64,000 nt of DNA from a virus: IMG/VR virus record IMGVR_UViG_3300035698_010466, positions 26,936-90,935 of that record; one strand, written 5' to 3'. Shown piece by piece: positions 2,233-60,872 of this stretch. The notes under the pieces are model-generated. The model was not told the origin of the DNA and ran no database searches. It saw nothing but the letters and a program-made list of their open reading frames with translations. The position numbers and the translations under genes are program-made. Within the stretch, counting starts at the first letter, position 1, and the number at the start of each line of letters is the position of its first letter.

Positions 2233-2304
2233 TGATCCATGGTGTAATCGGTAACACATAACACTTTGAATGTTAAGTACCAGGTTCAAATCCTGGTGGA
2301 CCAA
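2233..2304 (+). tRNA. tRNA-Gln(TTG)
   Basis: Acceptor TGATCCA/TGGACCA (one mismatch), U1-A72 as usual for Gln, anticodon arm TAACA-CTTTGAA-TGTTA, T-arm CCAGG-TTCAAAT-CCTGG. CCA is not encoded as a tail. Confidence 0.9.
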
Positions 2305-2384
2305 CTGAGTATCTAGATTTTTGTTTGCAAGCCCTTATTGTTACAATCGGCCGATACTAATGATAAGGAATCGAAAATACTTTC

Positions 2385-2453
2385 GCGATATAGTATAGTG
2401 GTAGTACATTGGCGTTCGAAGCTGGTGGCTCAGGTTCGATTCCTGATATCGCA
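2385..2453 (+). tRNA. tRNA-Arg(TCG)
   Basis: Acceptor GCGATA/TATCGC, anticodon loop GTTCGAA on a G-U-rich stem TTGGC/GCTGG, T-loop TTCGATT. Short D-arm; total about 69 bases. Confidence 0.88.
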
Positions 2454-2471
2454 ACTATTGTAACTAAACAT

Positions 2472-2545
2472 GGCCCTTTCGTCTAATAGGCTAGGACACA
2501 TCTCTTTCAAGGATGAAACGCACGGATCGTAACCGGCAGGGGTCA
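2472..2545 (+). tRNA. tRNA-Glu(TTC)
   Basis: Acceptor GGCCCTT/AGGGGTC, D-arm GTC/GAC, anticodon arm CATCT-CTTTCAA-GGATG. The T-loop is ATCGTAA: A54 and T58 replace the usual T54/A58. The T-stem GC(A)CGG/CCGGC contains one bulged A. Confidence 0.87.
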
Positions 2546-2549
2546 CTAA

Positions 2550-2600
2550 ATTAATCTGATGCCGTATAAAATATCGGTAGTATCTGAGGCTAGGATTAAT
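2550..2600 (+). other. stem-closed spacer RNA
   Basis: ATTAATC (2550-2556) pairs with GATTAAT (2594-2600), with an inner TGCCG/CGGTA hairpin, between the Glu and Phe tRNAs. No tRNA arms identified. Confidence 0.4.
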
Positions 2601-2610
2601 TTTTAAACAT

Positions 2611-2683
2611 GGATTAGTAGCTCAAATGGTAGAGCGCCGGTGTGAAGTACCGGAGGTAGGTGGATCGTTACCACCCTATTCCA
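2611..2683 (+). tRNA. tRNA-Phe(GAA)
   Basis: Acceptor GGATTAG/CTATTCC (one T-T mismatch), D-arm GCTC/GAGC, anticodon arm CCGGT-GTGAAGT-ACCGG, T-arm GGTGG-ATCGTTA-CCACC. This is another T-loop with A54/T58. Confidence 0.9.
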
Positions 2684-2746
2684 CTGCATTGATTACCGGC
2701 TACAATCATCGGTCCTTTACCCTAAATTGTTAGGGAAATAACCAAA

Positions 2747-2908
2747 ATGGGCAAACCGGGAAGCTTTCGTAAACGTATCCAAACCCTCAGTAGGGGATAC
2801 CGAAAAGAAATAAATTGTATAAGAAGCGAAAAATGGTCAACTCGAGATAAGGCCAGAGTATTGTATGAAAAAATATCCGTAAGGAGAATAACGAAGGGGT
2901 TTTTATAA
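2747..2908 (+). CDS. possible small basic protein, 53 aa
   Basis: ATG at 2747, stop TAA at 2906-2908, just before tRNA-Tyr. The product is strongly basic (begins MGKPGSFRKRIQTLSRG). Codon use (CTC, ACC, CGT, GCC) is less AT-rich than neighbouring genes, as for the structured RNAs of this region, so it may instead be an RNA segment. CCCTAA/TTAGGG (about 2719-2735) forms a hairpin upstream. Confidence 0.3.
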   Translation: MGKPGSFRKRIQTLSRGYRKEINCIRSEKWSTRDKARVLYEKISVRRITKGFL

Positions 2909-2909
2909 T

Positions 2910-2991
2910 GGGTACGGAAAGTCATTTCGGATATGACAATCGGTCTGTAACACCGATCCTTTGGGGCGTGGTTCGAGTCCACCCGGATCCA
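2910..2991 (+). tRNA. tRNA-Tyr(GTA)
   Basis: Acceptor GGGTACG/CGGATCC (one mismatch), D-arm GTC/GAC, anticodon arm TCGGT-CTGTAAC-ACCGA, an 11-base variable arm, T-loop TTCGAGT. The variable arm is shorter than in usual bacterial tRNA-Tyr. Confidence 0.8.
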
Positions 2992-3179
2992 CTAAAATCA
3001 TGGAGTATCGAAGATAACGTAGAAGCGGTAGGATTAATTTGCAAGAAGGCCTACAACGTTTGCAAACTCAAATTGATTTTAACTTTTAAATGATTTTAAA
3101 AAATCTGTGCTAATAATAACATGTAAAAAATTAGAACAGTTTCCTCGGGCAAGGTCTATGGAAATATTTAAAAGTCAAT
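2992..3179 (+). other. spacer between tRNA-Tyr and tRNA-Lys
   Basis: No gene identified. GCAAGAAGGCC and a TTGC/GCAA pair suggest local folding only. Confidence 0.3.
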
Positions 3180-3253
3180 ACTCTCGAAGCTCAAGTGAAA
3201 GTAGCTACGCTCTTTTAAAGCGAAGGTTGCAGGTTTGATCCCTGCGGGGAGTA
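3180..3253 (+). tRNA. tRNA-Lys(TTT)
   Basis: Acceptor ACTCTCG/GGGGAGT (one mismatch), anticodon loop CTTTTAA, T-arm GCAGG-TTTGATC-CCTGC. Confidence 0.9.
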
Positions 3254-3260
3254 CAAAAAA

Positions 3261-3346
3261 TTGGAAGTGATGAAATTGGCAAACATACTTCCCCAAGAGG
3301 GAAGTGGAAATATATTTCCGTAGTGGTTCGAGTCCACTCTTCCAAT
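3261..3346 (+). tRNA. tRNA-Leu-like, class II (AAG by position)
   Basis: Perfect acceptor TTGGAAG/CTTCCAA, D-stem ATG/CAT, long variable arm GGAAATATATTTCC, T-arm AGTGG/CCACT. The anticodon arm CTTCC-CCAAGAG-GGAAG puts AAG at 34-36 but C at 33 instead of the near-universal T, so the anticodon call is uncertain. The class II body supports Leu. Confidence 0.7.
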
Positions 3347-3554
3347 CAAATAAAATTAGTAAAGAAATCTAAATCTTGGATGGATACATCAATGTAGATT
3401 GGCAAGGATATTAATTTTATCAATAAGTAGCCGAAAGGTGTAGATAAACTAATGCATGATACGAGTACAGGGAACCAGCCCAATGACTCTACTTATGAAC
3501 TTATCGCTAATAGGTTTCCACCTTGGGAAGCGTTAAATATTCCTAAACGGACCA
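3347..3554 (+). other. spacer between tRNA-Leu and tRNA-Asp
   Basis: About 200 bases without an open frame or complete cloverleaf. Likely leader or processed spacer RNA. Confidence 0.3.
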
Positions 3555-3626
3555 CGTCTGCGTAGTGTAATGGCTAGCATATCTGACTGTCTATCAGAAG
3601 GAGGGGTTCGAATCCCACGTCGACGG
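3555..3626 (+). tRNA. tRNA-Asp(GTC), copy 1
   Basis: Acceptor CGTCTGC/GTCGACG (one mismatch), anticodon arm TCTGA-CTGTCTA-TCAGA, T-loop TTCGAAT, G73 as expected for Asp. Confidence 0.88.
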
Positions 3627-3705
3627 CTAAGTTAATAGTAAACGCACCTAACGATTCTGAAAAGAACCGCGGACAAAATTCTTAGGTCTATTAACATTTT
3701 TAAAT

Positions 3706-3780
3706 ACCTTTGTAGGCCTCTTGGTGAGGAACTAGGCTGTCAACCTAGTAAGACAAACGGATCGTAACCGTTCAGGGGTG
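3706..3780 (+). tRNA. tRNA-Asp(GTC), copy 2
   Basis: Acceptor ACCTTTG/CAGGGGT, D-stem CCTC/GAGG with loop TTGGT, anticodon arm CTAGG-CTGTCAA-CCTAG, T-arm AACGG-ATCGTAA-CCGTT with A54/T58. The body is unrelated to copy 1. Confidence 0.85.
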
Positions 3781-3785
3781 CAAAT

Positions 3786-3870
3786 GTTTCTATAGTTTAA
3801 TATTCGGAGTTAACCCTCCAGAAAAACACGGACTAGTACGAGCTTTAGGTTTGAAATCCTAATAGAGACA
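3786..3870 (+). tRNA. tRNA with unassigned anticodon
   Basis: Acceptor GTTTCTA/TAGAGAC and T-arm around TTTGAAA are good, and GTT...AAC can form a D-arm with GG in the loop. The remaining 29 bases give no canonical 5+7+5 anticodon arm; GGAG-TTAACC-CTCC is the only hairpin. Decayed or unusual. Confidence 0.45.
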
Positions 3871-4023
3871 CAAATACCATTCTATAGTGTAAGACTAGGA
3901 ACAAGTATTTAAGATAAGTATTCGACAAAGATCTATCGAAAAAAGGCTTAAAGAAAATTCTGTACTAGAACACAACCCTCATGGGGAGGGTAGATACAGT
4001 ATCAAATCTGTTAGAATGACCAT
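3871..4023 (+). other. spacer with tRNA-like remnants
   Basis: TCTATAGTGTAAGACTAGGAAC resembles a tRNA 5' half in its first 20 bases, and ACCCTC/GAGGGT within CTGTA/TACAG forms a nested hairpin (about 3958-4003). No complete gene found. Confidence 0.3.
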
Positions 4024-4099
4024 CGGGTGGTAGAGGAGTCAGGTTTATCTCGGTATCTTTGGACGATACAGCACGCAGGTTCAAATCCTGCTCACCCGA
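4024..4099 (+). tRNA. tRNA-Pro(TGG), copy 1
   Basis: Acceptor CGGGTGG/TCACCCG, D-arm GAG/CTC, anticodon arm GTATC-TTTGGAC-GATAC, T-arm GCAGG-TTCAAAT-CCTGC. C1-G72 and A73 fit bacterial Pro. Confidence 0.9.
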
Positions 4100-4206
4100 C
4101 GACGGAGTTTTAATATTTTATTTTCTTCAAGTAAAGAAATTTTAAGTAGTCCTAGACAAAAGAAATTTTAAATAAAATGATATGACTGATGGAGAGACAT
4201 CAATAT

Positions 4207-4282
4207 CTGGTGGTAGAGGAGTCAGGTTTATCTCGGTATCTTTGGACGATACAGCACGCAGGTTCGAATCCTGCCTATCAGA
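4207..4282 (+). tRNA. tRNA-Pro(TGG), copy 2
   Basis: Identical to copy 1 from the D-arm through the anticodon arm to the T-stem, but the acceptor is CTGGTGG/CTATCAG. A recent duplication in which only the acceptor stem has changed. Confidence 0.9.
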
Positions 4283-4300
4283 CAATTATATTAAGTTGAA

Positions 4301-4397
4301 AATCTAACATTGTATTATGTTATACTAAATACCTTGGTACAACATATTAAGAATTGGTATTTTATTACAATTTCAAAACCTATGAATACGTTAGATT
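4301..4397 (+). other. stem-closed spacer RNA
   Basis: AATCTAAC (4301-4308) pairs perfectly with GTTAGATT (4390-4397); an inner AATACC/GGTATT pair supports folding. Function unknown. Confidence 0.45.
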
Positions 4398-4647
4398 GAT
4401 TGATGATACTATAAAAGATTCCCCAATATACCAATGGTTTCAACAGTTGCGGGGTGCGAGAAGTGTCGATACGGATTTATAACCTGTATAAATAACCTGA
4501 CAGTCAACTTGGACTATTATTGTTTCATAGAGGTATGGCTTAATATAATTTTTTAAAATTATCACAGTGGGCTGTTAATTAAAATGTTTAAAAAATATAT
4601 AGATGAATTTAATCCTTTACCAGGTATTAAATACTCAATAAATTAAT
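4398..4647 (+). other. spacer before tRNA-Asn class II
   Basis: Only a 20-codon open frame at 4584 and short hairpins, for example ATAC...GTAT near 4475. I see no supported gene. Confidence 0.3.
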
Positions 4648-4735
4648 TCTAAGGTTGCCGTAGTTGGTCGAACGGTCCAGACTGTTAATCTGGTGAGTGT
4701 AAACTCCATCGTAGGTTCGAATCCTCCCCTTAGAG
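4648..4735 (+). tRNA. tRNA-Asn(GTT) with a long variable arm
   Basis: Acceptor TCTAAGG/CCTTAGA, D-arm GCCG/CGGT, anticodon arm CCAGA-CTGTTAA-TCTGG. The variable region is 17 bases with a GAGT/ACTC stem, a class II feature that Asn tRNAs lack. U1-A72 and G73 match Asn (G73 also fits Ser). An ordinary Asn(GTT) exists at 7604. Confidence 0.82.
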
Positions 4736-4772
4736 CGCAAATAGAAATCTTTAAAGATTTCAAAAATATATT

Positions 4773-4846
4773 GCGGGATGGTAGCAGATGGTTTAGCTCA
4801 CCGGGCTCATAACCCGGAGGTCGGGGGTTCAAGTCCCTCTCCCGCA
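4773..4846 (+). tRNA. tRNA-Met(CAT), initiator-like
   Basis: Acceptor GCGGGAT/CTCCCGC (last pair open), D-arm TAGC/GCTC, anticodon arm CCGGG-CTCATAA-CCCGG. Three G-C pairs next to the loop are an initiator hallmark, but G1-C72 is paired. Confidence 0.87.
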
Positions 4847-4988
4847 ACTTTAAACATTTCTGACACATTAATGAATTTATATGTTGTGCGTATTGTTAAA
4901 TCAGACAAGCTATAATGCTGTTTAGGGATAGTTTTATAGTATACATACTAATTTTCTGGTCTCCCTAAGATTAGAAAATGTTAACGTG

Positions 4989-5072
4989 GTTTTATAATAT
5001 ACTTGGAAAGTTAAAGAGCGGACATAGATCCGTAAACTTTAACGATATAGGGTTCGAGTCCCTTGTGGAACA
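4989..5072 (+). tRNA. tRNA-like RNA with disrupted anticodon arm
   Basis: GTTTTAT pairs with GTGGAAC using several G-U pairs, and a T-arm with loop TTCGAGT is present. The middle is a long hairpin GTTAAAG/CTTTAAC enclosing GCGGA/TCCGT instead of D- and anticodon arms. Insertion in the anticodon arm or decay; anticodon not assigned. Confidence 0.4.
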
Positions 5073-5083
5073 CTATTTAATAC

Positions 5084-5157
5084 GGGTCTTTAGCTTAGTA
5101 GGTTAAAGCAGTTGACTCATAATCAAAAGATCGCAGGTTCGATTCCTGCAAGGCCCA
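5084..5157 (+). tRNA. tRNA-Met/Ile2(CAT)
   Basis: Acceptor GGGTCTT/AAGGCCC, D-arm GCTT/AAGC, loop CTCATAA, T-arm GCAGG/CCTGC. CAT can be elongator Met or Ile2 (lysidine-modified); sequence does not decide. Confidence 0.87.
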
Positions 5158-5197
5158 CTTAATTCTTACATAAGGTACATTAGCAGTACTGAAAGAA

Positions 5198-5252
5198 CTC
5201 TTAACTCTCACAGGATCGCAACCTTTAATGAGAGCTTTAAATGGCTTAAGAG
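5198..5252 (+). other. stem-closed spacer RNA
   Basis: CTCTTAA pairs with TTAAGAG, and directly inside it CTCTCA pairs with TGAGAG. Two stacked perfect stems in a 55-base element between tRNAs. Confidence 0.45.
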
Positions 5253-5338
5253 ATAATGTTGGAGTCCCTGCTCTATCATGCATGGTAACAGGTTATAGGG
5301 AACAAACTATAGGTAAAAACTCGACAGAAGAATTATAT

Positions 5339-5423
5339 GGAAGGCATCCGGAAGGCATGAGGAGCTGCTCTTGAAAAGCAGTAATGGGTAAGACCATCGG
5401 GGGTTCGAATCCGCCGTCTTCCT
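5339..5423 (+). tRNA. tRNA-Ser(TGA)
   Basis: Acceptor GGAAGGC/GTCTTCC, anticodon arm CTGCT-CTTGAAA-AGCAG, extended variable arm, T-loop TTCGAAT. Shares its acceptor design with the Ser(GCT) at 8634. Confidence 0.9.
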
Positions 5424-5536
5424 CAAACATTTTTAAAGTTATAAGCTAGTAAGGTCTGGGCGAATGGACACCAGGTTACCCCAATAGACAGATTTTAAAA
5501 ATGGGAATATTATCTTACATTCAGCTCTAATATTCT

Positions 5537-5594
5537 AAGTACATCAGAGGTTCAATTGGGAACACTTAAATGTTGAATTCAAAACTCACTCTGA
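5537..5594 (+). other. mini tRNA-like hairpin RNA
   Basis: ATCAGAG pairs with CTCTGAT; inside lie GTTC-AATTGG-GAAC, which looks like a D-arm, and ACA-CTTAAA-TGT. At about 54 bases it is shorter than a tRNA and lacks a consensus T-arm. Confidence 0.35.
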
Positions 5595-5599
5595 TAAAC

Positions 5600-5673
5600 G
5601 CGAGTAACGCATAAATGGTGGTGCACCTGCCTTCCAAGCAGGAACAGAGTCGGTTCGATTCCGACTATTCGCT
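5600..5673 (+). tRNA. tRNA-Gly(TCC)
   Basis: Acceptor GCGAGTA/TATTCGC, anticodon arm CCTGC-CTTCCAA-GCAGG, T-arm GTCGG-TTCGATT-CCGAC. Confidence 0.92.
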
Positions 5674-5684
5674 CAAATTCATAA

Positions 5685-5823
5685 GGTTTCTTACAGCAAC
5701 TAACTACTTTAAATCTGCTGCCTTAAATGGCTTACGTGGTTCGAACCCCGTTGCTCCCACTATTAAATTATCACATGGGAGTATGATGGAACTGGAAAAC
5801 ATGGCGGATGTAAAATAGAAACC
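5685..5823 (+). tRNA. putative circularly permuted class II tRNA (Leu-like)
   Basis: The 3' half precedes the 5' half. TGCTCCC (5752-5758, after a T-arm) pairs over all seven positions with GGGAGTA (5777-5783), which is followed by a Leu-like D-arm ATG...CAT (5786-5802). TCTGC (5714-5718) pairs with GCGGA (5804-5808) as anticodon stem, and GCC-TTAAAT-GGC forms a variable arm. Flanks TTACA/TGTAA and GGTTTC/GAAACC also pair. The joined loop would include CTTTAAA; the anticodon is uncertain. Two adjacent tRNA fragments are the alternative. Confidence 0.42.
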
Positions 5824-5837
5824 TGGAATTTATTTAA

Positions 5838-5896
5838 AGGATGCTTACAGCAAATTAAACCAAATCAAACTTGAAAATTGAAAAACCATGCATCCT
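5838..5896 (+). ncRNA. repeated TACAGCAAA hairpin element
   Basis: AGGATGC/GCATCCT closes a loop beginning TTACAGCAAA and containing CAAACTT. A homolog lies at 7938, and the same TTACAGCAA motif begins the permuted tRNA element at 5691. Each copy lies shortly upstream of a tRNA or tRNA half. Confidence 0.45.
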
Positions 5897-5915
5897 GAAT
5901 TTTTACTTACTACAT

Positions 5916-5988
5916 GGGGAATTGGTGAAATTGGCTATCACAAGACTCTTGCAAAGTCTAGTTTCCGAATCGTACTCGGAATTCTCCA
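5916..5988 (+). tRNA. tRNA-Ala(TGC)
   Basis: Acceptor GGGGAAT/ATTCTCC contains G3-U70, the Ala identity pair. Anticodon arm AGACT-CTTGCAA-AGTCT. T-arm TCCGA-ATCGTAC-TCGGA has the A54/T58 swap. Confidence 0.92.
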
Positions 5989-6022
5989 CTATTATCGGTT
6001 CAATTTATTGTGACTCCATGAA

Positions 6023-6035
6023 TATATAAAATAAA
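6023..6035 (+). promoter_or_regulatory. late-promoter-like box before HNH gene
   Basis: TATATAAAATAAA directly before the ATG at 6037; identical to the boxes at 161, 25771 and 38639. Confidence 0.45.
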
Positions 6036-6036
6036 A

Positions 6037-6819
6037 ATGGATATAAAGTATATTTGTAAAGAATGCAATATTGAATTTAAAACATTTCAAGATAAAGCTA
6101 ATCATGTTAGATGGAAACATAAAGATAATTCAAATTATTTAATAAAGGCAAGTGAATCTGCTAAAAAAGCTTGGACTAAAAAATTAGGGAAATGGGTAGA
6201 TGAAACTACTGAATGTTACATATGTAAAACTATATTTGATATTAGATATAGAGAAGGAAAGAAAAAAAATAAATATTTTTGTTCAAGATCATGCGCAAAT
6301 AGTAGAATTATTACTAAAAAAACTAGAGATAAAATATCTAAATCGTTAATCGGTAAACCTTCTCCACGTATTCATTTGAACATTAAAAAAGTTTGTGGTC
6401 AATGTAATTGTGAATTTGAAGTACGTGCTACAAGAAGAAATCAAAAGTTTTGTTCTATAGAATGTTCGAATAAATTTAGAAAAAAAACTAGGTCAGAATT
6501 TGCAAATTATAAATCTGAATGTAGATTTAATTTTAATTTAGCTGATTACCCTGATGAATTTGATTTTACTTTAATAGAAAATTTTGGTTGGTATAAAGCT
6601 GCAAATAGAGGAAATAATTTAAACGGTATTAGCAGAGATCATATGATAAGTGTTAAATATGGATATGAACATAATATCGATTCAAAATTTATTAGTCATC
6701 CTGCAAATTGTAAATTAATGAGGCATAATGATAATGTAAGTAAATATACAAAATGTTCTATTTCTCTAACAGAATTATTAAATAAAATAGAATATTGGAA
6801 TAAAACATATAAAAAATAA
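6037..6819 (+). CDS. HNH homing endonuclease with zinc fingers
   Basis: 260 aa. It begins with a C2H2-like finger (CKEC ... HVRWKH, residues 9-30), then two further Cys-pair fingers (CYIC...CSRSC about 62-88; CGQC...CSIEC about 118-140). The HNH core is near residues 200-240: SRDHMIS, SHPANC and RHNDNVSK. This architecture is typical of phage HNH nucleases moving between tRNA and other genes. It lies between tRNA-Ala and tRNA-Gly with its own promoter-like box, so it interrupts the tRNA array without breaking a tRNA. Confidence 0.87.
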   Translation: MDIKYICKECNIEFKTFQDKANHVRWKHKDNSNYLIKASESAKKAWTKKLGKWVDETTECYICKTIFDIRYREGKKKNKYFCSRSCANSRIITKKTRDKISKSLIGKPSPRIHLNIKKVCGQCNCEFEVRATRRNQKFCSIECSNKFRKKTRSEFANYKSECRFNFNLADYPDEFDFTLIENFGWYKAANRGNNLNGISRDHMISVKYGYEHNIDSKFISHPANCKLMRHNDNVSKYTKCSISLTELLNKIEYWNKTYKK

Positions 6820-6838
6820 TAAAAGATTATTTTTAATT

Positions 6839-6911
6839 GCGATAATAGCTCAGTTGGTAGAGCATTAGGTTGCCAATCTAAAGGTCGTGGGTTCGAATCC
6901 CATTTATCGCT
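6839..6911 (+). tRNA. tRNA-Gly(GCC)
   Basis: Acceptor GCGATAA/TTATCGC, D-arm GCTC/GAGC, anticodon arm TTAGG-TTGCCAA-TCTAA, T-loop TTCGAAT. Confidence 0.93.
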
Positions 6912-6917
6912 CCAAAC

Positions 6918-6991
6918 GCTTCCATAGTTTAGAAGGCAGAAAACCCCGGATTTGTAACCCGGAAAACTCAGTTCGATCCTGAGTGGGAGCT
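6918..6991 (+). tRNA. tRNA-Thr(TGT)
   Basis: Acceptor GCTTCCA/TGGGAGC, D-arm GTTT/AAAC, loop TTTGTAA on stem CCGGA/CCCGG (one mismatch), T-arm CTCAG-TTCGATC-CTGAG. Confidence 0.9.
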
Positions 6992-7014
6992 CTCAAATAA
7001 ATCAAAAATAGTAT

Positions 7015-7524
7015 ATGATAGGTACAATTACAATAATTCAATCTTTAATAATAGTATCATATATTACTTTTCTTTTAATAAAATTTAAAGGACCTTTATC
7101 GTCGATATCACAATCATGGTATGCATTAAAGCCTTATAATTTAAGTTACTTATTTTATATTTTTATGATATCATTAGGTTTATGTATGGATTTTAGACAT
7201 GATCCTTTTTATTATATGTCAGGAATGGGTTTATTTTTAGTCGCAGGAGCGGCTGCATTTAGATCAAAATATAAAGGAACAAATATTCTACATTATACAG
7301 GAGTGTTATTAGCTACTGTTTTTGCTTTTTGGGGGCAATATTATAAAGTAGGTATATTACCACAGAGTATTAGTATACTCTCACTGGTCGCTCTGATATT
7401 TATCTTTTTTAGAAAGGATTATTTATGGTGGATAGAAATAGCAATATTCATATCAATAATGATAGGATTTGCAATACAAGATATGCGGGGTGGACTGGAG
7501 ATGGTTACCAGCTCGGGCTCATAA
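7015..7524 (+). CDS. multi-span membrane protein overlapping a tRNA gene
   Basis: 169 aa with about five hydrophobic segments (residues 4-22, 43-57, 70-85, 95-112, 119-132, 140-153), so an inner-membrane protein. The pattern of a short N-terminal helix, basic loop, SISQSWYALKP and an FRSK motif reminds me of small membrane proteins of Bacteroidota phages, but I cannot name a function. Its last 13 codons run into tRNA-Met (7485-7558) and its TAA is the TAA of the anticodon loop CTCATAA. The true protein may be shorter if expression is limited by tRNA processing. Confidence 0.75.
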   Translation: MIGTITIIQSLIIVSYITFLLIKFKGPLSSISQSWYALKPYNLSYLFYIFMISLGLCMDFRHDPFYYMSGMGLFLVAGAAAFRSKYKGTNILHYTGVLLATVFAFWGQYYKVGILPQSISILSLVALIFIFFRKDYLWWIEIAIFISIMIGFAIQDMRGGLEMVTSSGS

Positions 7525-7558
7525 CCCGAACGACGAAGGTTCGATTCCTTCCCCCGCA
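7485..7558 (+). tRNA. tRNA-Met(CAT), second initiator-like copy
   Basis: Acceptor GCGGGGT/CCCCCGC (last pair open), anticodon arm TCGGG-CTCATAA-CCCGA with three G-C pairs beside the loop, T-arm GAAGG-TTCGATT-CCTTC. Its 5' 40 bases overlap the membrane-protein gene. Confidence 0.88.
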
Positions 7559-7603
7559 CCCATAACGCGGTTAGAGTTTCGCGTTTAAACAAAAACTCAA
7601 AAT

Positions 7604-7676
7604 TGACAGATAGCCCAAATGGTAGAGGGTCCGGCTGTTAACCGGAAAGATATAGGTTCGAACCCTATTCTGTCAG
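7604..7676 (+). tRNA. tRNA-Asn(GTT), class I
   Basis: Acceptor TGACAGA/TCTGTCA, anticodon arm TCCGG-CTGTTAA-CCGGA, T-arm ATAGG/CCTAT, G73 and U1-A72 as in other Asn tRNAs. Confidence 0.93.
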
Positions 7677-7683
7677 CAAATAT

Positions 7684-7758
7684 GCTCGTGTGGTCAAAAT
7701 GGTAAAGGCGCTGGTTTTAGACACCAGAGATTTGAGGGTTCGACTCCCTCCATGAGTA
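7684..7758 (+). tRNA. tRNA with Leu anticodon TAG but short variable loop
   Basis: Acceptor GCTCGTG/CATGAGT, anticodon arm CTGGT-TTTAGAC-ACCAG, T-arm GAGGG-TTCGACT-CCCTC. The variable loop is only AGATTT, so the body is class I, unlike normal Leu tRNAs. Charging identity is uncertain. Confidence 0.85.
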
Positions 7759-7759
7759 C

Positions 7760-7842
7760 AAAGAAAGTAAGGTTAAAGATGATAGTCTGTAATAAAGCCG
7801 ACGACTATACGAGATGCATCTCGTTTCCGGTTATCTTTCTTT
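7760..7842 (+). ncRNA. three-stem structured spacer RNA
   Basis: AAAGAAAG (7760-7767) pairs with CTTTCTTT (7835-7842). Inside are ATAGTC/GACTAT (7782-7808) and the perfect hairpin palindrome CGAGATGCATCTCG (7810-7823). No family recognised. Confidence 0.5.
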
Positions 7843-7847
7843 CTTTA

Positions 7848-7917
7848 GATGATATAACTCAATGGGTAGAGTAGGGCTTAGCGGCCTTAGTTACAGGTTC
7901 GAATCCTGTTATCATCG
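7848..7917 (+). tRNA. tRNA with abnormal anticodon loop
   Basis: Acceptor GATGATA/TATCATC, D-arm ACTC/GAGT and T-arm ACAGG-TTCGAAT-CCTGT are canonical. The anticodon arm pairs either as TAGGG/CCTTA with an eight-base loop CTTAGCGG or as AGGGC/GCCTT with a six-base loop TTAGCG; no seven-base loop forms. Anticodon not assigned. Eight-base loops are known from frameshift-suppressor tRNAs. Confidence 0.7.
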
Positions 7918-7937
7918 CAACAATAATATTCTGCATA

Positions 7938-7998
7938 AGGATGCCTACAGCAAACTAAACTAAACCAAACTTTTAATTTGAAAACACTGTGTATCCTG
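7938..7998 (+). ncRNA. repeated TACAGCAAA hairpin element, second copy
   Basis: AGGATGC/GTATCCT closes a loop beginning CTACAGCAAACTAAAC and containing CCAAACTT, as in the element at 5838. It ends seven bases before tRNA-Leu(TAA). Confidence 0.45.
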
Positions 7999-8004
7999 TA
8001 TATG

Positions 8005-8083
8005 ATCCTGTGGTGAAAATGGTAGACACGTTAGGTTTAAGCCCTAATGCTTATGCGTGCCGGTTCGAATCCGGCCAGGATTA
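8005..8083 (+). tRNA. tRNA-Leu(TAA)
   Basis: Acceptor GATCCTG/CAGGATT, anticodon arm TTAGG-TTTAAGC-CCTAA, short class II variable arm around GCTTATGC, T-arm GCCGG-TTCGAAT-CCGGC. Confidence 0.9.
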
Positions 8084-8129
8084 CACGGTGGTTTTTCGAG
8101 GGTTCCACTTCAAATAAACCTGAGACCAT

Positions 8130-8204
8130 GCTCCTTTAGCTTAGTAGGTTTAAAGCGTGATTCTTACAAAATTGAGACCGGTGGTTCGAATCCACCAGGG
8201 AGTA
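8130..8204 (+). tRNA. tRNA-Val(TAC)
   Basis: Acceptor GCTCCTT/AGGGAGT, D-arm GCTT/AAGC, anticodon arm TGATT-CTTACAA-AATTG, T-arm GGTGG/CCACC, A73. Confidence 0.9.
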
Positions 8205-8210
8205 CAATAT

Positions 8211-8283
8211 ACACGTATAGTTCAATCGGATAGAACATATGACTACGAATCATAAGATGAGGGTTCGATTCCTTCTATGTGTA
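8211..8283 (+). tRNA. tRNA-Arg(ACG)
   Basis: Acceptor ACACGTA/TATGTGT, D-arm GTTC/GAAC, anticodon arm TATGA-CTACGAA-TCATA. A34 implies deamination to inosine by host TadA. Confidence 0.92.
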
Positions 8284-8297
8284 CAATAATTACAAAT

Positions 8298-8381
8298 GCC
8301 CCTGTATCTCATCGGTCTTCTAAACCGAGTCGTTAAATGAGTAATTGGAGTGACGTGTGGGTTCGATTCCCTCCAGGGGTT
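8298..8381 (+). tRNA. tRNA-Arg(TCT) lacking a D-arm in its usual place
   Basis: Acceptor GCCCCTG/CAGGGGT and anticodon arm TCGGT-CTTCTAA-ACCGA are good, but only seven bases separate them. After the anticodon arm come 27 bases containing GTC...GAC and a D-loop-like AATTGG. The arm order looks shuffled, or a D-arm was lost and the variable region expanded. Confidence 0.65.
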
Positions 8382-8385
8382 CTAA

Positions 8386-8467
8386 AATTCAGTTTTCTGA
8401 CACCTAGGGTTAGTGAATAATTTAAAGCAGAACATAAGTGGTACACAAGTCCACGACTGAATTTTTT
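8386..8467 (+). ncRNA. stem-closed spacer RNA ending in a T-run
   Basis: AATTCAGT (8386-8393) pairs with ACTGAATT (8456-8463), followed directly by T. Could be a small RNA with terminator-like end or a decayed tRNA. Confidence 0.45.
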
Positions 8468-8472
8468 GACAT

Positions 8473-8543
8473 ACGTCTGTATCTTAATGGTAAAGTACTG
8501 GTCTCCAAAACCAGCAATGGGGGTTCGACTCCTCCCAGGCGTG
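8473..8543 (+). tRNA. tRNA-Trp(CCA)
   Basis: Acceptor ACGTCTG/CAGGCGT, anticodon arm CTGGT-CTCCAAA-ACCAG, G73 as expected for Trp. CCA anticodon reads UGG only, in its unmodified form. Confidence 0.93.
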
Positions 8544-8553
8544 CACATAACAT

Positions 8554-8628
8554 CGATACGTGGCCAAGTAGGTGAAGGCACCTGGCTGATAACCAGGAGA
8601 TGCGCAGGTTCAATTCCTGCCGTATCGA
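8554..8628 (+). tRNA. tRNA-Ile(GAT)
   Basis: Acceptor CGATACG/CGTATCG, anticodon arm CCTGG-CTGATAA-CCAGG, T-arm GCAGG-TTCAATT-CCTGC. Confidence 0.93.
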
Positions 8629-8633
8629 CATAA

Positions 8634-8718
8634 GGAAGGCTGACAGAAAGGTATTGTATTAGTTTGCTAAACTAAAGTCTGTGTCAAACCAGTGGGGGTT
8701 CGAATCCGCCGCCTTCCT
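8634..8718 (+). tRNA. tRNA-Ser(GCT)
   Basis: Acceptor GGAAGGC/GCCTTCC, anticodon arm TTAGT-TTGCTAA-ACTAA, class II variable arm, T-loop TTCGAAT. Confidence 0.92.
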
Positions 8719-8750
8719 CAAAAAATATTTTAAAAATAATCACCCAAAAA

Positions 8751-8799
8751 TTTTTATTTCCCAATAAAATTGATTATATTTAATTATAATTAAAAACGG
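8751..8799 (+). promoter_or_regulatory. conserved promoter-like element, copy 4
   Basis: Same core as copy 1 (CCCAATAAAATTGATTATA, then ATTATAATTAAAAACGG). It lies directly before the small gene at 8805. Confidence 0.6.
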
Positions 8800-8804
8800 A
8801 AATA

Positions 8805-8972
8805 ATGAAAGTAACAATAATGAAAATGAAACACACCTTATTAGTTGAAGACAAAAAAGGTAAAGAGTCTCAAATTCCATTATGGGCTTTGATTGATGAA
8901 TGTGGTCATACTATGATACAAGTTTATAGTAAAGAAGAACCAATAGAATTACAAAAAGAATTAGAAAAATAG
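8805..8972 (+). CDS. small protein of unknown function, 55 aa
   Basis: ATG at 8805, six bases after a conserved promoter-like element. A later in-frame Met (residue 6) is an alternative start. The sequence is mixed charged/hydrophobic with an acidic Lys-Glu tail and one Cys-Gly-His. No family recognised. The dedicated promoter-like element and typical phage codon use support a real gene in the middle of the RNA region. Confidence 0.6.
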   Translation: MKVTIMKMKHTLLVEDKKGKESQIPLWALIDECGHTMIQVYSKEEPIELQKELEK

Positions 8973-8978
8973 AAAATT

Positions 8979-9071
8979 ATTGATTAAGTGTACTAAGGTT
9001 CTGATACCAAGCTGTAAACGCGCAAGGAGGATATACCGACATCGCTGGTATGAGAAAACATGCTAATCAAT
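8979..9071 (+). other. stem-closed spacer RNA
   Basis: ATTGATTA (8979-8986) pairs with TAATCAAT (9064-9071), eight perfect pairs. The interior has GATACCAAGC/GCTGGTAT-type pairing. Not a tRNA. Confidence 0.45.
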
Positions 9072-9082
9072 ATATAAAAATT

Positions 9083-9207
9083 AATCCCGTAAAAGCAATT
9101 AAGAATGTATGCATACAATCGGTATTTTTAAGTTGCAACTTGAAGGCACCCCGTCATTGATGGTACTAATGTTCGACTCATTGGCAATGAATTAATTGTG
9201 AGGGATT
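9083..9207 (+). ncRNA. multi-branched structured RNA
   Basis: AATCCC/GGGATT outer stem, CAATTAA/TTAATTG inner stem, and three inner hairpins: palindrome TGTATGCATACA (9106-9117), palindrome AAGTTGCAACTT (about 9130-9141), and a T-arm-like AATG-TTCGACT-CATT (about 9168-9182). It ends just before the CAT tRNA at 9212. No family recognised. Confidence 0.45.
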
Positions 9208-9211
9208 ATAT

Positions 9212-9285
9212 GGCGAGGTAGCTTAGTTGGTCAGAGCGTCGGAATCATAACCCGAAGGTCACCGGTTCGAAACCGGTCCTCGCTA
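9212..9285 (+). tRNA. tRNA-Met/Ile2(CAT)
   Basis: Acceptor GGCGAGG/CCTCGCT, loop ATCATAA on TCGGA/CCCGA (one mismatch), T-arm ACCGG-TTCGAAA-CCGGT. Fourth CAT tRNA of the array; one of them is probably Ile2. Confidence 0.88.
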
Positions 9286-9289
9286 CATT

Positions 9290-9485
9290 AAAAGAATGTC
9301 CATCGCTCGTAAGAGAGGAAGTTCAGGACATCGCAGTTTAAGGCAGGAGATTCAACGCTTATCGGAATCGTTCGTACTGCCGAGGATGCAACTTCAAAAC
9401 AGCTTAGAGGATGAACTGCTCATAAAGCAAGGTAGAAGGCAAAGATAAATGATGGACCACGACAGGATCCTGGCTATATTCTTTT
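9290..9485 (+). ncRNA. rnpB: compact RNase P RNA
   Basis: The 3' region GATGGACCACGACAGGATCC followed by TGGCTATA matches conserved region V of bacterial RNase P RNA (E. coli GACTGTCCACGACAGAACCC, then GGCTTAT), including CCACGACAG exactly and AGATAAATGA upstream. P1 forms as AAAAGAAT/ATTCTTTT, P2 as GTCCATC/GATGGAC, a short P3 follows, then GAGGAAGTTCAGGACA matches the GAGGAAAGTCC block, with P4 as CAGGA/TCCTG. GGCAG/CTGCC (around 9342-9384) replaces most of the specificity domain. At 196 bases it is about half the usual size. It ends the tRNA array, whose transcripts are its expected substrates. Confidence 0.87.
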
Positions 9486-9492
9486 AAAAATT

Positions 9493-9602
9493 AAATTGAG
9501 TGGTAGTAGGACGGAATATTGTAGGTTGCTGGACACAAACCGCAATAAAGGTAAAGCTCTAAATTGTAAAATCCAGTAAGGGCGAATAAAGTAACTCAAT
9601 TT
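9493..9602 (+). ncRNA. structured RNA of unknown type downstream of RNase P RNA
   Basis: AAATTGAGT (9493-9501) pairs with ACTCAATTT (9594-9602), then T-rich; CTGGA (9529-9533) pairs with TCCAG (9572-9576). Contains ACAAACCGC and TAAGGGCGAA, which echo words of the RNase P specificity domain, but in a different arrangement. Confidence 0.5.
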
Positions 9603-9608
9603 TTATAT

Positions 9609-9680
9609 GGTGTTTGAAGCATTAAGGTGATGCGTCTGACTGTGACTCAGAAGAACTTGGATCAATACCAAGCTAATACC
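9609..9680 (+). tRNA. tRNA-His(GTG)
   Basis: G-1 at 9609 faces C73, the His hallmark. D-arm GCAT/ATGC, anticodon arm TCTGA-CTGTGAC-TCAGA, T-arm CTTGG-ATCAATA-CCAAG. Confidence 0.9.
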
Positions 9681-9693
9681 CCAATTTAATAAG

Positions 9694-9701
9694 TATAAAT
9701 A
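9694..9701 (+). promoter_or_regulatory. T4-like late promoter box TATAAATA
   Basis: Exact T4 late-promoter octamer 17 bases before the ATG at 9718. A second exact copy is at 36487. Confidence 0.5.
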
Positions 9702-9717
9702 TTTTAAATTAATTAAC

Positions 9718-10227
9718 ATGAGCAAGTATACAAAAACATTAGTCGTTGATAATAGTTATATTCCACGAAGTATAATTCGTACAGAAAGAGCCTTTGTTAT
9801 TTCATATAAAGGAAATGCTGATGTTATTGCAGAACATCCAGAATCATTTAAGTTAGTTAATCCTAATTTAGATATTTTAAAGCCATCAATAATTAAAGTA
9901 CACAGATTTATTAATTCTCCATTTTATAAAGTTCCTTTAACAAGAGTGAATGTTTTTAGACGTGATAATTTTGAATGTGTATATTGTGGAAAGGGTGATC
10001 ATAAAAAAGAATTAACTCTTGACCACGTAATTCCTAAATCAAAGGGTGGTCCAGATTCTTGGGATAATTTAGTAACTGCATGCAAATCATGTAATATCGA
10101 AAAATCTGATTTAACTTTAGAAGAATGGGGTAAGGAAATTCCTAAACCACATAGACCACATTATTTAATGTTAATAAAAAAATTAGATTATGTTCCAGAA
10201 GAATGGAAAAAATACTTATTATTCTAA
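9718..10227 (+). CDS. HNH endonuclease
   Basis: 169 aa. The C-terminal half has a full HNH/McrA-type domain: CVYCG and CKSCN form the zinc knuckle, LTLDHVIPKSKGG carries the Asp-His, and WDNLVTACKSCN the Asn. The N-terminal half (VDNSYIPRS) resembles the extension of stand-alone HNH proteins common in Bacteroidota and phages. Unlike the other nucleases here it has a TATAAATA box rather than the shared 13-mer. Intrinsic terminator downstream. Confidence 0.88.
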   Translation: MSKYTKTLVVDNSYIPRSIIRTERAFVISYKGNADVIAEHPESFKLVNPNLDILKPSIIKVHRFINSPFYKVPLTRVNVFRRDNFECVYCGKGDHKKELTLDHVIPKSKGGPDSWDNLVTACKSCNIEKSDLTLEEWGKEIPKPHRPHYLMLIKKLDYVPEEWKKYLLF

Positions 10228-10230
10228 ACA

Positions 10231-10254
10231 AAGCCTGATTAATTTCAGGTTTTT
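10231..10254 (+). terminator. intrinsic terminator
   Basis: CCTGA/TCAGG stem with an AT-rich loop followed by TTTTT, between the HNH gene and tRNA-Cys. Confidence 0.7.
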
Positions 10255-10256
10255 AT

Positions 10257-10337
10257 GAAGGTGTACCTAAGCGGCCAAAGGGGATGGATTGCAAATTCAT
10301 TGCGAAAGCTTCGTCAGTTCGAATCTGACTACCTTCT
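10257..10337 (+). tRNA. tRNA-Cys(GCA)
   Basis: Acceptor GAAGGTG/TACCTTC, anticodon arm ATGGA-TTGCAAA-TTCAT, extended variable loop with GCGAAAGC, T-arm GTCAG-TTCGAAT-CTGAC. Completes a set for all twenty amino acids. Confidence 0.9.
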
Positions 10338-10428
10338 CTCTTTCAGAAATCATATACTTAGTTTATATTTTAATTAAACTAATGTTAATATATGCTATAT
10401 AAAAATATAGATAATTTAAAAATCCAAT

Positions 10429-57848: not shown

Positions 57849-60800
57849 ATGGAGGATATAATCGAGGAAATAGTAACAAAAACAGAAACAAACTTCAACA
57901 ACGAATTTAGCAAAGAGATTTATGAACAGACATATAAATTTGGTAATGAGAATATAAACATAACACTAAATAGAATAGCAAAAACATTAGCAGAAAATGA
58001 AAAAGATTCTGAAAAATGGACATCGAAATTTTTAGATCTATTAACAGATTTTAAATTCGTACCAGGCGGTAGAATTATTTCAAATGCAGGAGTACCTCTA
58101 AAGGGCACAAGTATGATTAATTGTTTCGTTGATGGATTTATTGGAGAAGATCAAGATTCAATGGAAAGTATTTTAGATACATTAAGGCGACAAGCATTAA
58201 TATTAAAATCAGAAGGCGGTTATGGATTTTGTGCTAATGTGATGAGACCACGTGGGGCTTTTATTAGAGGTATTGGAAATGAATCACCAGGCTCAATTAA
58301 AATGTTAGATATGTGGAATACACAGTCTGAAGTAATAACTGAAGGAAGTGGTAAAAAACCAAAAAGAGAAGATAGCAAAATTAAAATTCGTAAAGGTGCT
58401 CAACTTTGCACTTTATCGTGCTGGCATCCTGACATTGAAGAATTTATAACTGCAAAACAAACCTCCGGTAGATTAACAAAATTTAACATGTCGGTATTAA
58501 TTACTGATGCGTTCATGGATGCTGTTAAAAATAATAAATCTTGGGCTTTAGAATTTCCTGATTATGAATATTCTGATCAACCTCCTTTCGAATCTTCTGA
58601 AAAATATCCCCCTTTAGCTATTCACGTTGCACAACAATGGTCAAAGGAGATGATAAAAATCGCATATAAAGAAGAATGGGATGGTGATTTAAAAAAATGG
58701 AAAGCAAAAGGATTACCTACACAGATTTATAAAACCTTTGAAAATGCAAATGAGTTATGGGATCTTATAATGACCTCGACTTATAATAGAAATGAACCTG
58801 GTGTACTTTTCATTGATACAATTAATAAGCTAAATAACTTAAAATATATTGAATATATTAATGCTACTAATCCATGTGTTATTGGTGAAACTTTGGTATC
58901 AACTGATAAAGGCGATATCAGAATAGACGAGCTTGTAAAGCGATATAATGAAGGTGAGAGTTTTAATGCAACATCTTACAATATTGATACAAAAACTATC
59001 GAATTAAAAGAAGTGGAATTTGCACAAAAAACAAAAAAGAACACTAATGTAATTAAATTAGTTTTAGATAATGATGAAACATTAACTTTAACACCTGAGC
59101 ATAAAGTGTATACTGAAAATCGAGGTTGGATAAAAGCTTCACAGTTAAGTAATATTGATAATTTAATTGCAATTAATACAAAACCTAAAATTAAAAAAAT
59201 AGAAATTGTTGAAAATCAAGATGTGTATGATATTAGAGTTGCTGATAATCATAACTTCTTCGGTAACAATTTATTAATACATAATTGCGGAGAGCAGACA
59301 CTCCCAATCGGCGGCGTATGTTTATTAGGATCAATCAATTTAACACAATTCATTGATTACAAGAAAGAAAATTGGGATTATGCTAAACTTAAACAATACA
59401 TTCCAACAATTATAAGATTAATGGACAATGTCAATGATATTACATATGTGCCATTAGAATATCAAACTGAAAATTTAGTAAATAAAAGACGTATAGGTTT
59501 AGGTATAATGGGATATGGTTCTGCATTAATGATGTTAAAATTAAAGTATGGATCTAAAAAAGCTTTAAGATTAACTGATGAGTTAATGAATTTTATTGCT
59601 AATACTGCATATCAATCTTCTGCCTTATTATCAAAAGAAAAAGGATCATTCAAATTATATAATGAGAAAGAATATCTTTCGTCTGCTTTTATTAAACAAT
59701 CATTATCAAATGAAACTATTGGAATGATTAAAAAGAATGGCATAAGAAATTCACATCTCTTGTCAGTGCAGCCTACTGGTAATTCCGCGATCTTTGCTAA
59801 TAATGTATCAGGCGGTTTAGAACCTTTATTTATGACTGAATACATTCGAACCTCTATTATGCCATATTCTCCTGATGGATTAGATATTCCTAAAAATATC
59901 AATTGGGAAAGTAAAGAATATGAATCATCTAATGAATGGGATTGGATTAAAGAAGGTGATGAATCTTTACTATCAATATCATATGAAGGGTATATTTATA
60001 AGTTTGATAAAAGTCGTGGATTATTAAGAGAGACTTTAGTAGAAGATTATGCTGTACGTTATTTAAAATCAATTAATGAATATGATGAAGATGCTGATTA
60101 TGTAGCAACTACCATATCATTAGGTATTGATGAACATATTGATACATTGAAAGTAATATCAAAATATGTGGATAGTGCACTATCCAAAACTGTGAATTTG
60201 TCAAATGATTATCCTTATGAGGATTTTAAAAATCTTTATATGAAATTATATGATAGTCATACTGTTAAGGGATGTACTACTTATCGTGCAGGTACTATGA
60301 CAACGGTATTATCATTAAAAGATAAATCTGAGAATGATAATAAAAATATATTAGCTAAAACACATTCACCACGAAGGCCAAAAGTATTACCTTGTGACAT
60401 ACATCAATTACAAGTGTTAGGTGAACAATGGGTTGTGTTAGTTGGTTTATATGGAGATAAGAAAGATCCTTATGAAATATTTGCATTTAAGAAAAAGGAA
60501 ATAGGAATTTCTGCTTCTATTAAAGAAGGTTTATTAACGAAAGTTAAAAGTGGCCGATATGATTTAGACATTAATGGAGTTGTACTTGAAGATATCAAAA
60601 CTCATTTTGAAACACAAGAAGAGGAAGCGTTAACTCGTATGATATCAACTGCATTAAGACATGGAGCTGATATTAATTTTATCTTTGAACAATTACAAAA
60701 ATCTGAAGGTGCTATCATATCATTTTCTAAAGCGATTGCCAGGACTCTTAAGAAGTATATTAATGATGATGATTTTAAACCTGGCGATTGTGAAGTATGT

Positions 60801-60872
60801 GAAGGGAAAGGCACTTTGGTAAGACAAGAGGGCTGTTATATTTGTGTTGGATGTGGAGCATCGGCTTGTTAA
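57849..60872 (+). CDS. nrdJ: class II (B12-dependent) ribonucleotide reductase with mini-intein
   Basis: 1007 aa. RNR domain: FVPGGRIISNAGVP, INCFVDG, RRQALILKSEGGYGF, then NATNP just before the intein (residues 343-479) and CGEQTLPIGGVCLLGSINL after it; SVQPTGNSAIFANNVSGGLEP is the 5'-phosphate loop. The C-terminal CEVCEGKGTLVRQEGCYICVGCGA is the NrdJ zinc/thiol tail. No class I small subunit seen nearby. The intein is inserted right before the catalytic Cys, so no activity is possible before splicing. Uses host-supplied adenosylcobalamin. Confidence 0.93.
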   Translation: MEDIIEEIVTKTETNFNNEFSKEIYEQTYKFGNENINITLNRIAKTLAENEKDSEKWTSKFLDLLTDFKFVPGGRIISNAGVPLKGTSMINCFVDGFIGEDQDSMESILDTLRRQALILKSEGGYGFCANVMRPRGAFIRGIGNESPGSIKMLDMWNTQSEVITEGSGKKPKREDSKIKIRKGAQLCTLSCWHPDIEEFITAKQTSGRLTKFNMSVLITDAFMDAVKNNKSWALEFPDYEYSDQPPFESSEKYPPLAIHVAQQWSKEMIKIAYKEEWDGDLKKWKAKGLPTQIYKTFENANELWDLIMTSTYNRNEPGVLFIDTINKLNNLKYIEYINATNPCVIGETLVSTDKGDIRIDELVKRYNEGESFNATSYNIDTKTIELKEVEFAQKTKKNTNVIKLVLDNDETLTLTPEHKVYTENRGWIKASQLSNIDNLIAINTKPKIKKIEIVENQDVYDIRVADNHNFFGNNLLIHNCGEQTLPIGGVCLLGSINLTQFIDYKKENWDYAKLKQYIPTIIRLMDNVNDITYVPLEYQTENLVNKRRIGLGIMGYGSALMMLKLKYGSKKALRLTDELMNFIANTAYQSSALLSKEKGSFKLYNEKEYLSSAFIKQSLSNETIGMIKKNGIRNSHLLSVQPTGNSAIFANNVSGGLEPLFMTEYIRTSIMPYSPDGLDIPKNINWESKEYESSNEWDWIKEGDESLLSISYEGYIYKFDKSRGLLRETLVEDYAVRYLKSINEYDEDADYVATTISLGIDEHIDTLKVISKYVDSALSKTVNLSNDYPYEDFKNLYMKLYDSHTVKGCTTYRAGTMTTVLSLKDKSENDNKNILAKTHSPRRPKVLPCDIHQLQVLGEQWVVLVGLYGDKKDPYEIFAFKKKEIGISASIKEGLLTKVKSGRYDLDINGVVLEDIKTHFETQEEEALTRMISTALRHGADINFIFEQLQKSEGAIISFSKAIARTLKKYINDDDFKPGDCEVCEGKGTLVRQEGCYICVGCGASAC
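58875..59285 (+). other. cis-splicing mini-intein in NrdJ
   Basis: 137 residues: Cys1 CVIGETLVSTDKGDIRIDEL (block A), LTPEHKVYTENRGWIKASQL (block B), VYDIRVADNHNFFGNN (block F), LLIHN end, then Cys+1 (the catalytic Cys of NPCGE). No endonuclease domain, so it is no longer mobile by itself. Confidence 0.93.

Follow-up and report, generated by a model that had tools for sequence, protein, structure and literature searches.

Ribonuclease P (RNase P) is a near-universal ribozyme with which nearly all cells trim their transfer RNAs (tRNAs), and to our knowledge it has previously been regarded as a cellular possession. The 64,000-nucleotide (nt) stretch of DNA analyzed here (the window), which forms positions 26,936 to 90,935 of the 90,935-base IMG/VR virus record IMGVR_UViG_3300035698_010466, contains a compact RNA of about 200 nt that is very probably a phage-encoded, class A-type RNase P RNA. 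It combines the catalytic domain with a vestigial specificity hairpin and is predicted to process the phage's precursor tRNAs (pre-tRNAs) together with an RnpA protein from the host or, rarely, from the phage. Such a recurrent gene of approximately 200 nt in tRNA-rich large phages, where RNase P was thought to be cellular, would extend the phage translation toolkit by a ribozyme and, twice, by a complete ribonucleoprotein enzyme. Nature would thereby supply a series of minimal RNase P RNAs of bacterial type in which to study the purpose of the specificity domain, and experiments could address why phages with large tRNA arrays cease relying on the host.

Identification as RNase P RNA, as proposed in an initial annotation made from the bare sequence, is supported by an end-to-end model match, by a model built without the window, and by covariation across the family. 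In an Infernal search with the whole of Rfam, the bacterial class A model (RF00010) aligns over model positions 1 to 367 (50.6 bits, E = 2e-14 in 1 kb). The Rfam gathering score for this model is 100, and at default sensitivity RF00010 is silent both in the window scan and in a search of the full genome record, such that standard annotation misses the compact RNA. The low score arises because the model charges for about 150 absent nucleotides, those of P8, P10 to P14, and P18. The covariance-model check suggested in the initial annotation therefore returned a full-length match, and it is only in the letter that there is no hit above threshold; the E value and the family covariation decisively outweigh the subcutoff score. 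The second model (R2), which was trained on other phage sequences and takes its structure from an RNAalifold prediction instead of a manual choice, scores the window RNA at 120.5 bits (E = 6e-28). The unsupervised consensus recovers P4, P5, P7, P15, and P16, and a generic 5' motif occurs once in the 64 kb, against an expectation of 0.00. Single-sequence minimum-free-energy folding does not discriminate the RNA (z = -0.31), as expected for a molecule with two long-range pseudoknots.

The pairings of P1, P2, a short P3, and P4 that were first proposed are all present at the places given for them, as are the GAGGAA block and the 3' conserved block CCACGACAG (positions 9457 to 9465). The specificity domain is indeed mostly replaced, with only P7 and one further hairpin left. 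The location was also right; the length of 196 bases (9290 to 9485) needs a small correction to about 200 nt (9288 to 9487; Table 1). The RNA had further been said to close the tRNA array; it lies within the array near its end, and a tRNA-His and a tRNA-Cys come after it. Beyond the features first listed, the window RNA contains P5, the P6 pseudoknot, P15, P16, and the GGU of L15, and the presence of P6 with P16/P17 assigns it to class A rather than to class B. P8, P10 to P14, P18, and the J11/12 T-loop-binding module are absent.

Table 1. Coordinates of the compact RNase P RNA, of the tRNAs around it, and of the phage RnpA genes (window positions unless a locus label is given)
Feature	Position	Strand	Details
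Compact RNase P RNA, P1 to P1	9288-9487	+	RF00010 match, 9288-9491; leave-out model R2, 9298-9477
P1	9288-9297/9478-9487	+	10 base pairs (bp), TTAAAAGAAT/ATTCTTTTAA
P2	9298-9304/9451-9457	+	GTCCATC/GATGGAC
P3, short hairpin	9306-9315 (pairs 9306-9308/9313-9315)	+	CTC-GTAA-GAG
CR-I block	9315-9320	+	GAGGAA, invariant in the 48-sequence alignment
P4	9320-9328/9468-9475	+	AGT[U]CAGGA/TCCTGGCT, 8/8 pairs, bulged U9323
P5	9329-9332/9385-9388	+	CATC/GATG
P6 pseudoknot	9333-9338/9414-9419	+	GCAGTT/AACTGC
Remaining specificity domain, whole	9342-9381	+	In place of class A P8-P14
P7	9342-9346/9377-9381	+	GGCAG/CTGCC
Specificity mini-hairpin	9349-9353/9365-9369	+	GATTC/GAATC; conserved flanks GGAG and CGUU..AC
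J5/15	9388-9391	+	GCAA, invariant in the compact phage family
P15	9392-9395/9435-9438	+	CTTC/GAAG
P16 around P17/P6 loop	9402-9428	+	GCTT/AAGC; P17 weak in the window
L15 GGU	9431-9433	+	Pre-tRNA 3' CCA-binding motif
CR-V and P4 3' strand	9462-9475	+	ACAGGA
tRNA array, presumed substrates	2233-10338	+	About 31 tRNAs, all on the + strand
tRNA-Met(CAT)	9212-9286	+	Ends 2 nt upstream of P1
tRNA-His	9610-9680	+	RF00005, 43.9 bits, covariance model only; anticodon read off the sequence
tRNA-Cys	10257-10338	+	Downstream of the RNase P RNA, same array
Phage RnpA gene, LR756502	L279:1435-1803		Distant from the RNA gene, same genome
Phage RnpA gene, LR745206	L280:1465-1812		Distant from the RNA gene, same genome

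The family was found by a gapped motif scan of IMG/VR, which returned 65 loci. Among these, 58 have the P1 and P4 pairing of RNase P RNA and score with a covariance model made from 48 sequences (R1); the other seven lacked this pairing and were dropped. Allowing longer spacing in another scan yielded 19 more model matches, two of them weak, which brings the total to at least 77 further IMG/VR contigs with the compact RNA. Exact conserved blocks were required in both scans, and carrier counts are therefore lower bounds. The carriers are dozens of divergent phages, ranging from 27 to 67% G+C, that share one common compact architecture, and together they make up a widespread, unannotated family of predicted phage-borne RNase P RNAs. 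That no common phage example was known holds for the open literature searched but not for sequence data, where the RNA is common. At one locus (L117:3202-3532, minus strand), a second, truncated copy stands in tandem directly upstream of the intact one.

Helices P2, P4, P5, P6, and P7 are present in all 52 distinct sequences, P3, P15, and P16 are present in 51 of the 52, and GGT occurs in the L15 region of 51. All 11 modeled helices, including both pseudoknots, show compensatory changes, which in P2 and in P6 affect all six modeled pairs. When the full structure with both pseudoknots is imposed on a plain MAFFT alignment, 87.9% of pairs are standard, compared with 65.2% after shuffling and 31 to 44% when the structure is slid by one to three columns. 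Both sides have changed in 40 of the 49 pairs, and the covariation score is 0.554 versus 0.175. P4 ranks among the best-conserved RNase P RNA helices, and across 75 sequences it is formed by 27 different pairings, is fully paired in 72, and has the bulged U in all. A P1-like closing helix of at least 6 bp is present at every confirmed locus. Beyond P7, there is a single short hairpin, with flanks (GGAG and CGUU..AC) conserved across the family, and no P18.

Published huge-phage genomes, the largest on record among them, also carry the RNA. Model R1 matches LR756500 (462 kb), LR756502 (642 kb), LR745206 (635 kb), and LR756508 (484 kb), as well as LR756501 and LR756503 (735 kb), at the same position in both. 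BLASTN of three family members against INPHARED gave no match, and BLASTN with a huge-phage RNase P RNA retrieved one extra huge phage, LR756511 (595 kb), in which R1 likewise detects the RNA. Published huge-phage carriers total six genomes of 462 to 735 kb. Their records are titled "uncultured phage" and lack annotation; judging from accession series and size, they probably come from the 2020 huge-phage study, in the text of which the term "RNase P" is absent. These RNAs, which did not contribute to the model, show extra compensatory P4 changes (e.g., CGACA/TGTCG and CTAGA/TCTAG), and a few have GAGAAA or ACAGAA as variants. No compact RNase P RNA was detected in XacN1, Atu_ph07, phage G, CBB, KVP40, Lak-A1, or LR756504, and the tRNA regions searched in Phosso, Tunturi_5, and LAh_6 likewise yielded none.

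Two of the huge phages, LR756502 and LR745206, are predicted to encode both RNase P subunits. Their RnpA proteins exceed the Pfam Ribonuclease_P cutoff of 22.3 bits (52 and 49 bits, respectively), carry the RNR signature (RAVDRNRVKRLMRE), and resemble in sequence the Bacillus RnpA proteins of known structure. An RnpA query against all INPHARED records returned these two and one weak 13-kb record. The window phage has no RnpA in its sequenced part.

The RNA is tightly linked to tRNAs. At its loci, 603 of 604 tRNAs are on the strand of the RNase P RNA, 46 of 59 family members have a co-oriented tRNA array within 500 nt, and for 33 of the 52 distinct RNAs a tRNA lies within 12 nt (21 upstream, 19 downstream, and 7 both). 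In the window, the shared strand and the 2-nt spacing suggest cotranscription within the phage tRNA operon, and the RNase P RNA and its adjacent tRNAs may share end processing. Maturation of the preceding tRNA at its 3' end would free the 5' end of the RNA; in relatives with a tRNA abutting downstream, RNase P cleavage of that tRNA would make the 3' end. The transcript is expected to fold, as the covariation shows, into a P1-P7/P15-P17 catalytic core with P4 and P6 pseudoknots and would then trim the 5' leaders from pre-tRNAs that the phage itself encodes. Since the search for a phage RnpA was negative in most carriers, these probably borrow host RnpA or rely on the RNA acting alone, and in at least two huge phages the phage RnpA would complete a viral holoenzyme. 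The benefit may be that a large tRNA array keeps maturing after transcription of host rnpB has been shut off. As to the tRNAs themselves, many other carriers encode CCA in nearly all of them, and the GGU motif is kept both in this group and in carriers whose tRNAs mostly lack it.

The compact RNA is rare in cellular genomes. The motif scan of 84,980 bacterial and archaeal genomes gave 102 matches, of which R1 confirms four, with one more marginal. The compact RNA occurs on a tRNA-rich contig (L245) of a Flavobacteriales metagenome-assembled genome (MAG) and on a 487-kb contig (L229) of the cultured Achromobacter anxifer LMG 26857; a normal RNase P RNA is also present in that MAG and elsewhere in the Achromobacter genome. 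The Achromobacter contig is megaplasmid-like, with more than 50 tRNAs, a transfer-messenger RNA, and conjugation genes, and BLASTN of its compact RNA against plasmids found no relative. This element (L284 to L290) also encodes FtsZ, gyrB, topA, RNase R, and DNA polymerase A, so that it combines a wide range of replication and RNA-processing functions. In two MAGs of the family Gemmataceae (L217:4541-4800 and L188:406-650), the compact RNA is the sole RF00010 match; L217 is surrounded by ordinary bacterial genes, and 79 other Gemmataceae-family genomes had no model match.

Several observations weigh against the predicted pre-tRNA-processing activity. No RnpA (Pfam Ribonuclease_P) was found in 43 viral records, 41 of them confirmed carriers and most of them fragments. 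In cellular RNase P, J11/12 and J12/11 form the T-loop-binding site; the loss of this module and of P18 makes it uncertain that the RNA is active without extra help and leaves the catalytic domain, the GGU, the mini-hairpin, and any protein to recognize the substrate. CCA is encoded by just 2 of 30 window tRNAs, so that a GGU-CCA contact would need CCA to be added first. In the sequence examined, the RNA is missing from the nearest topoisomerase relatives of the window phage, even from ones with 22 tRNAs, indicating that it is dispensable for some phages. The same result makes homology of neighboring genes a poor search route, whereas the gapped motif scan worked. The scarcity of RnpA among carriers and the near loss of the substrate-recognition domain would suit a noncatalytic decoy. 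Such an RNA would capture host RnpA on its retained P2-P4 platform, or else host pre-tRNAs, and thereby inhibit or reprogram the RNase P of the host. A decoy, however, would need neither the GGU of L15 (51 of 52) nor J5/15 nor an exactly kept bulged-U P4, and the carriers have many tRNAs that need RNase P, with two encoding their own RnpA; we consider this reading quite unlikely. It is also unlikely that the RNA is an active phage RNase P with a narrower or different role, such as processing confined to the transcript of its own operon or to other phage RNAs, or an increase in tRNA supply against host anticodon nucleases: the strict link with co-oriented tRNA arrays would be compatible with such a role, but no finding points away from ordinary pre-tRNA substrates.

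Two further explanations would deny the RNA a phage function. The RNA is far shorter than cellular RNase P RNA, its distribution is patchy, and locus L117 holds a broken second copy, all of which might suggest a captured host rnpB in decay, hitchhiking as a pseudogene in tRNA arrays. This is highly improbable given the strong compensatory evolution in every helix, both pseudoknots included, the recurrence of the compact architecture in phages of such divergent composition, and the near absence of model-fitting RNAs from cellular genomes. Alternatively, an ordinary cellular RNase P RNA could have entered the data in misbinned bacterial DNA, as IMG/VR contigs are metagenomic and a related compact RNA occurs in the two Gemmataceae MAGs. 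This is scarcely credible in view of the gene content of the window record, of the occurrence of the RNA in the published huge-phage genomes, and of the absence from the carriers among the 43 records searched of rnpA, which control bacteria of the usual kind all have. The record encodes a terminase large subunit (G000:13444-14031, upstream of the window), both subunits of a T4-type topoisomerase II (phrog_543 and phrog_551, E < 1e-140), ribonucleotide reductase, HNH and homing endonucleases, and a ClpA-like ATPase. Together with about 31 tRNAs, these genes bear out the phage origin assumed at the outset and lead us to reject bacterial contamination as the source of the contig.

Compared with RF00010 and Escherichia coli M1 RNA, the phage RNA has in common P1 to P7, P15 to P17, the P6 pseudoknot, GAGGAA, the bulged-U P4, the L15 GGU, and CR-V. 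It differs in length (about 200 nt versus 350 to 400 nt in cells), in the loss of P8, P10 to P14, and P18, in scoring below the gathering threshold, and in being encoded by phages within tRNA arrays; the low score and the missing domain class it as a compact variant rather than an ordinary class A member. The type P/T RNase P RNA of the archaeon Pyrobaculum is encoded by a cellular genome and acts with archaeal proteins. It likewise retains the catalytic domain and has lost the specificity domain almost wholly (PMC4919922), but the phage RNA keeps the bacterial class A features P16/P17, P6, and GGU. Candidate Phyla Radiation bacteria have reduced class A RNAs that also fall below Rfam thresholds (PMC8172020); these are the cell's own RNase P RNAs, most with P12, whereas the phage family is shorter and mobile. 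According to a 2024 RNase P review, the T4 tRNA operon is processed by host RNase P, and phage precursors without encoded CCA need RNase P (PMC11143913). T4 depends on the host ribozyme, whereas the window phage carries its own. The passages on phages examined in that review deal solely with phage tRNAs and phage RNAs as substrates, and no description of a phage RNase P was found in the open-licence texts searched, which is not proof of novelty.

A broader interpretation, which we offer tentatively as possible, is that tRNA maturation in large phages and megaplasmid-like elements is freed from the host enzyme by a minimal RNase P of their own (RNA, sometimes with RnpA), both autonomous and mobile. 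Its own ends would be matured by cleavage of neighboring tRNAs, its hairpin motif would replace the specificity domain, and in places, as in Gemmataceae, it may have replaced the cellular RNase P RNA.

Other features of the window were noted in passing. The ribonucleotide reductase large subunit (57849 to 60872) contains an intein domain. Near the RNase P RNA, the intergenic stretches 8385-8468 and 9485-9608 each have inverted repeats of roughly 9 bp or longer at their ends. Their folding is not clearly above that of shuffled sequences (z = -1.5 and -1.1), one of them had no Rfam match when scanned at a low threshold, and neither has relatives among the loci examined. Adjacent to the first of these stretches, a tRNA-like element (8297-8383) that was missed by ARAGORN and Rfam has a TCT anticodon loop and a T arm, apparently without a normal D arm, and has weak relatives in other phage loci.
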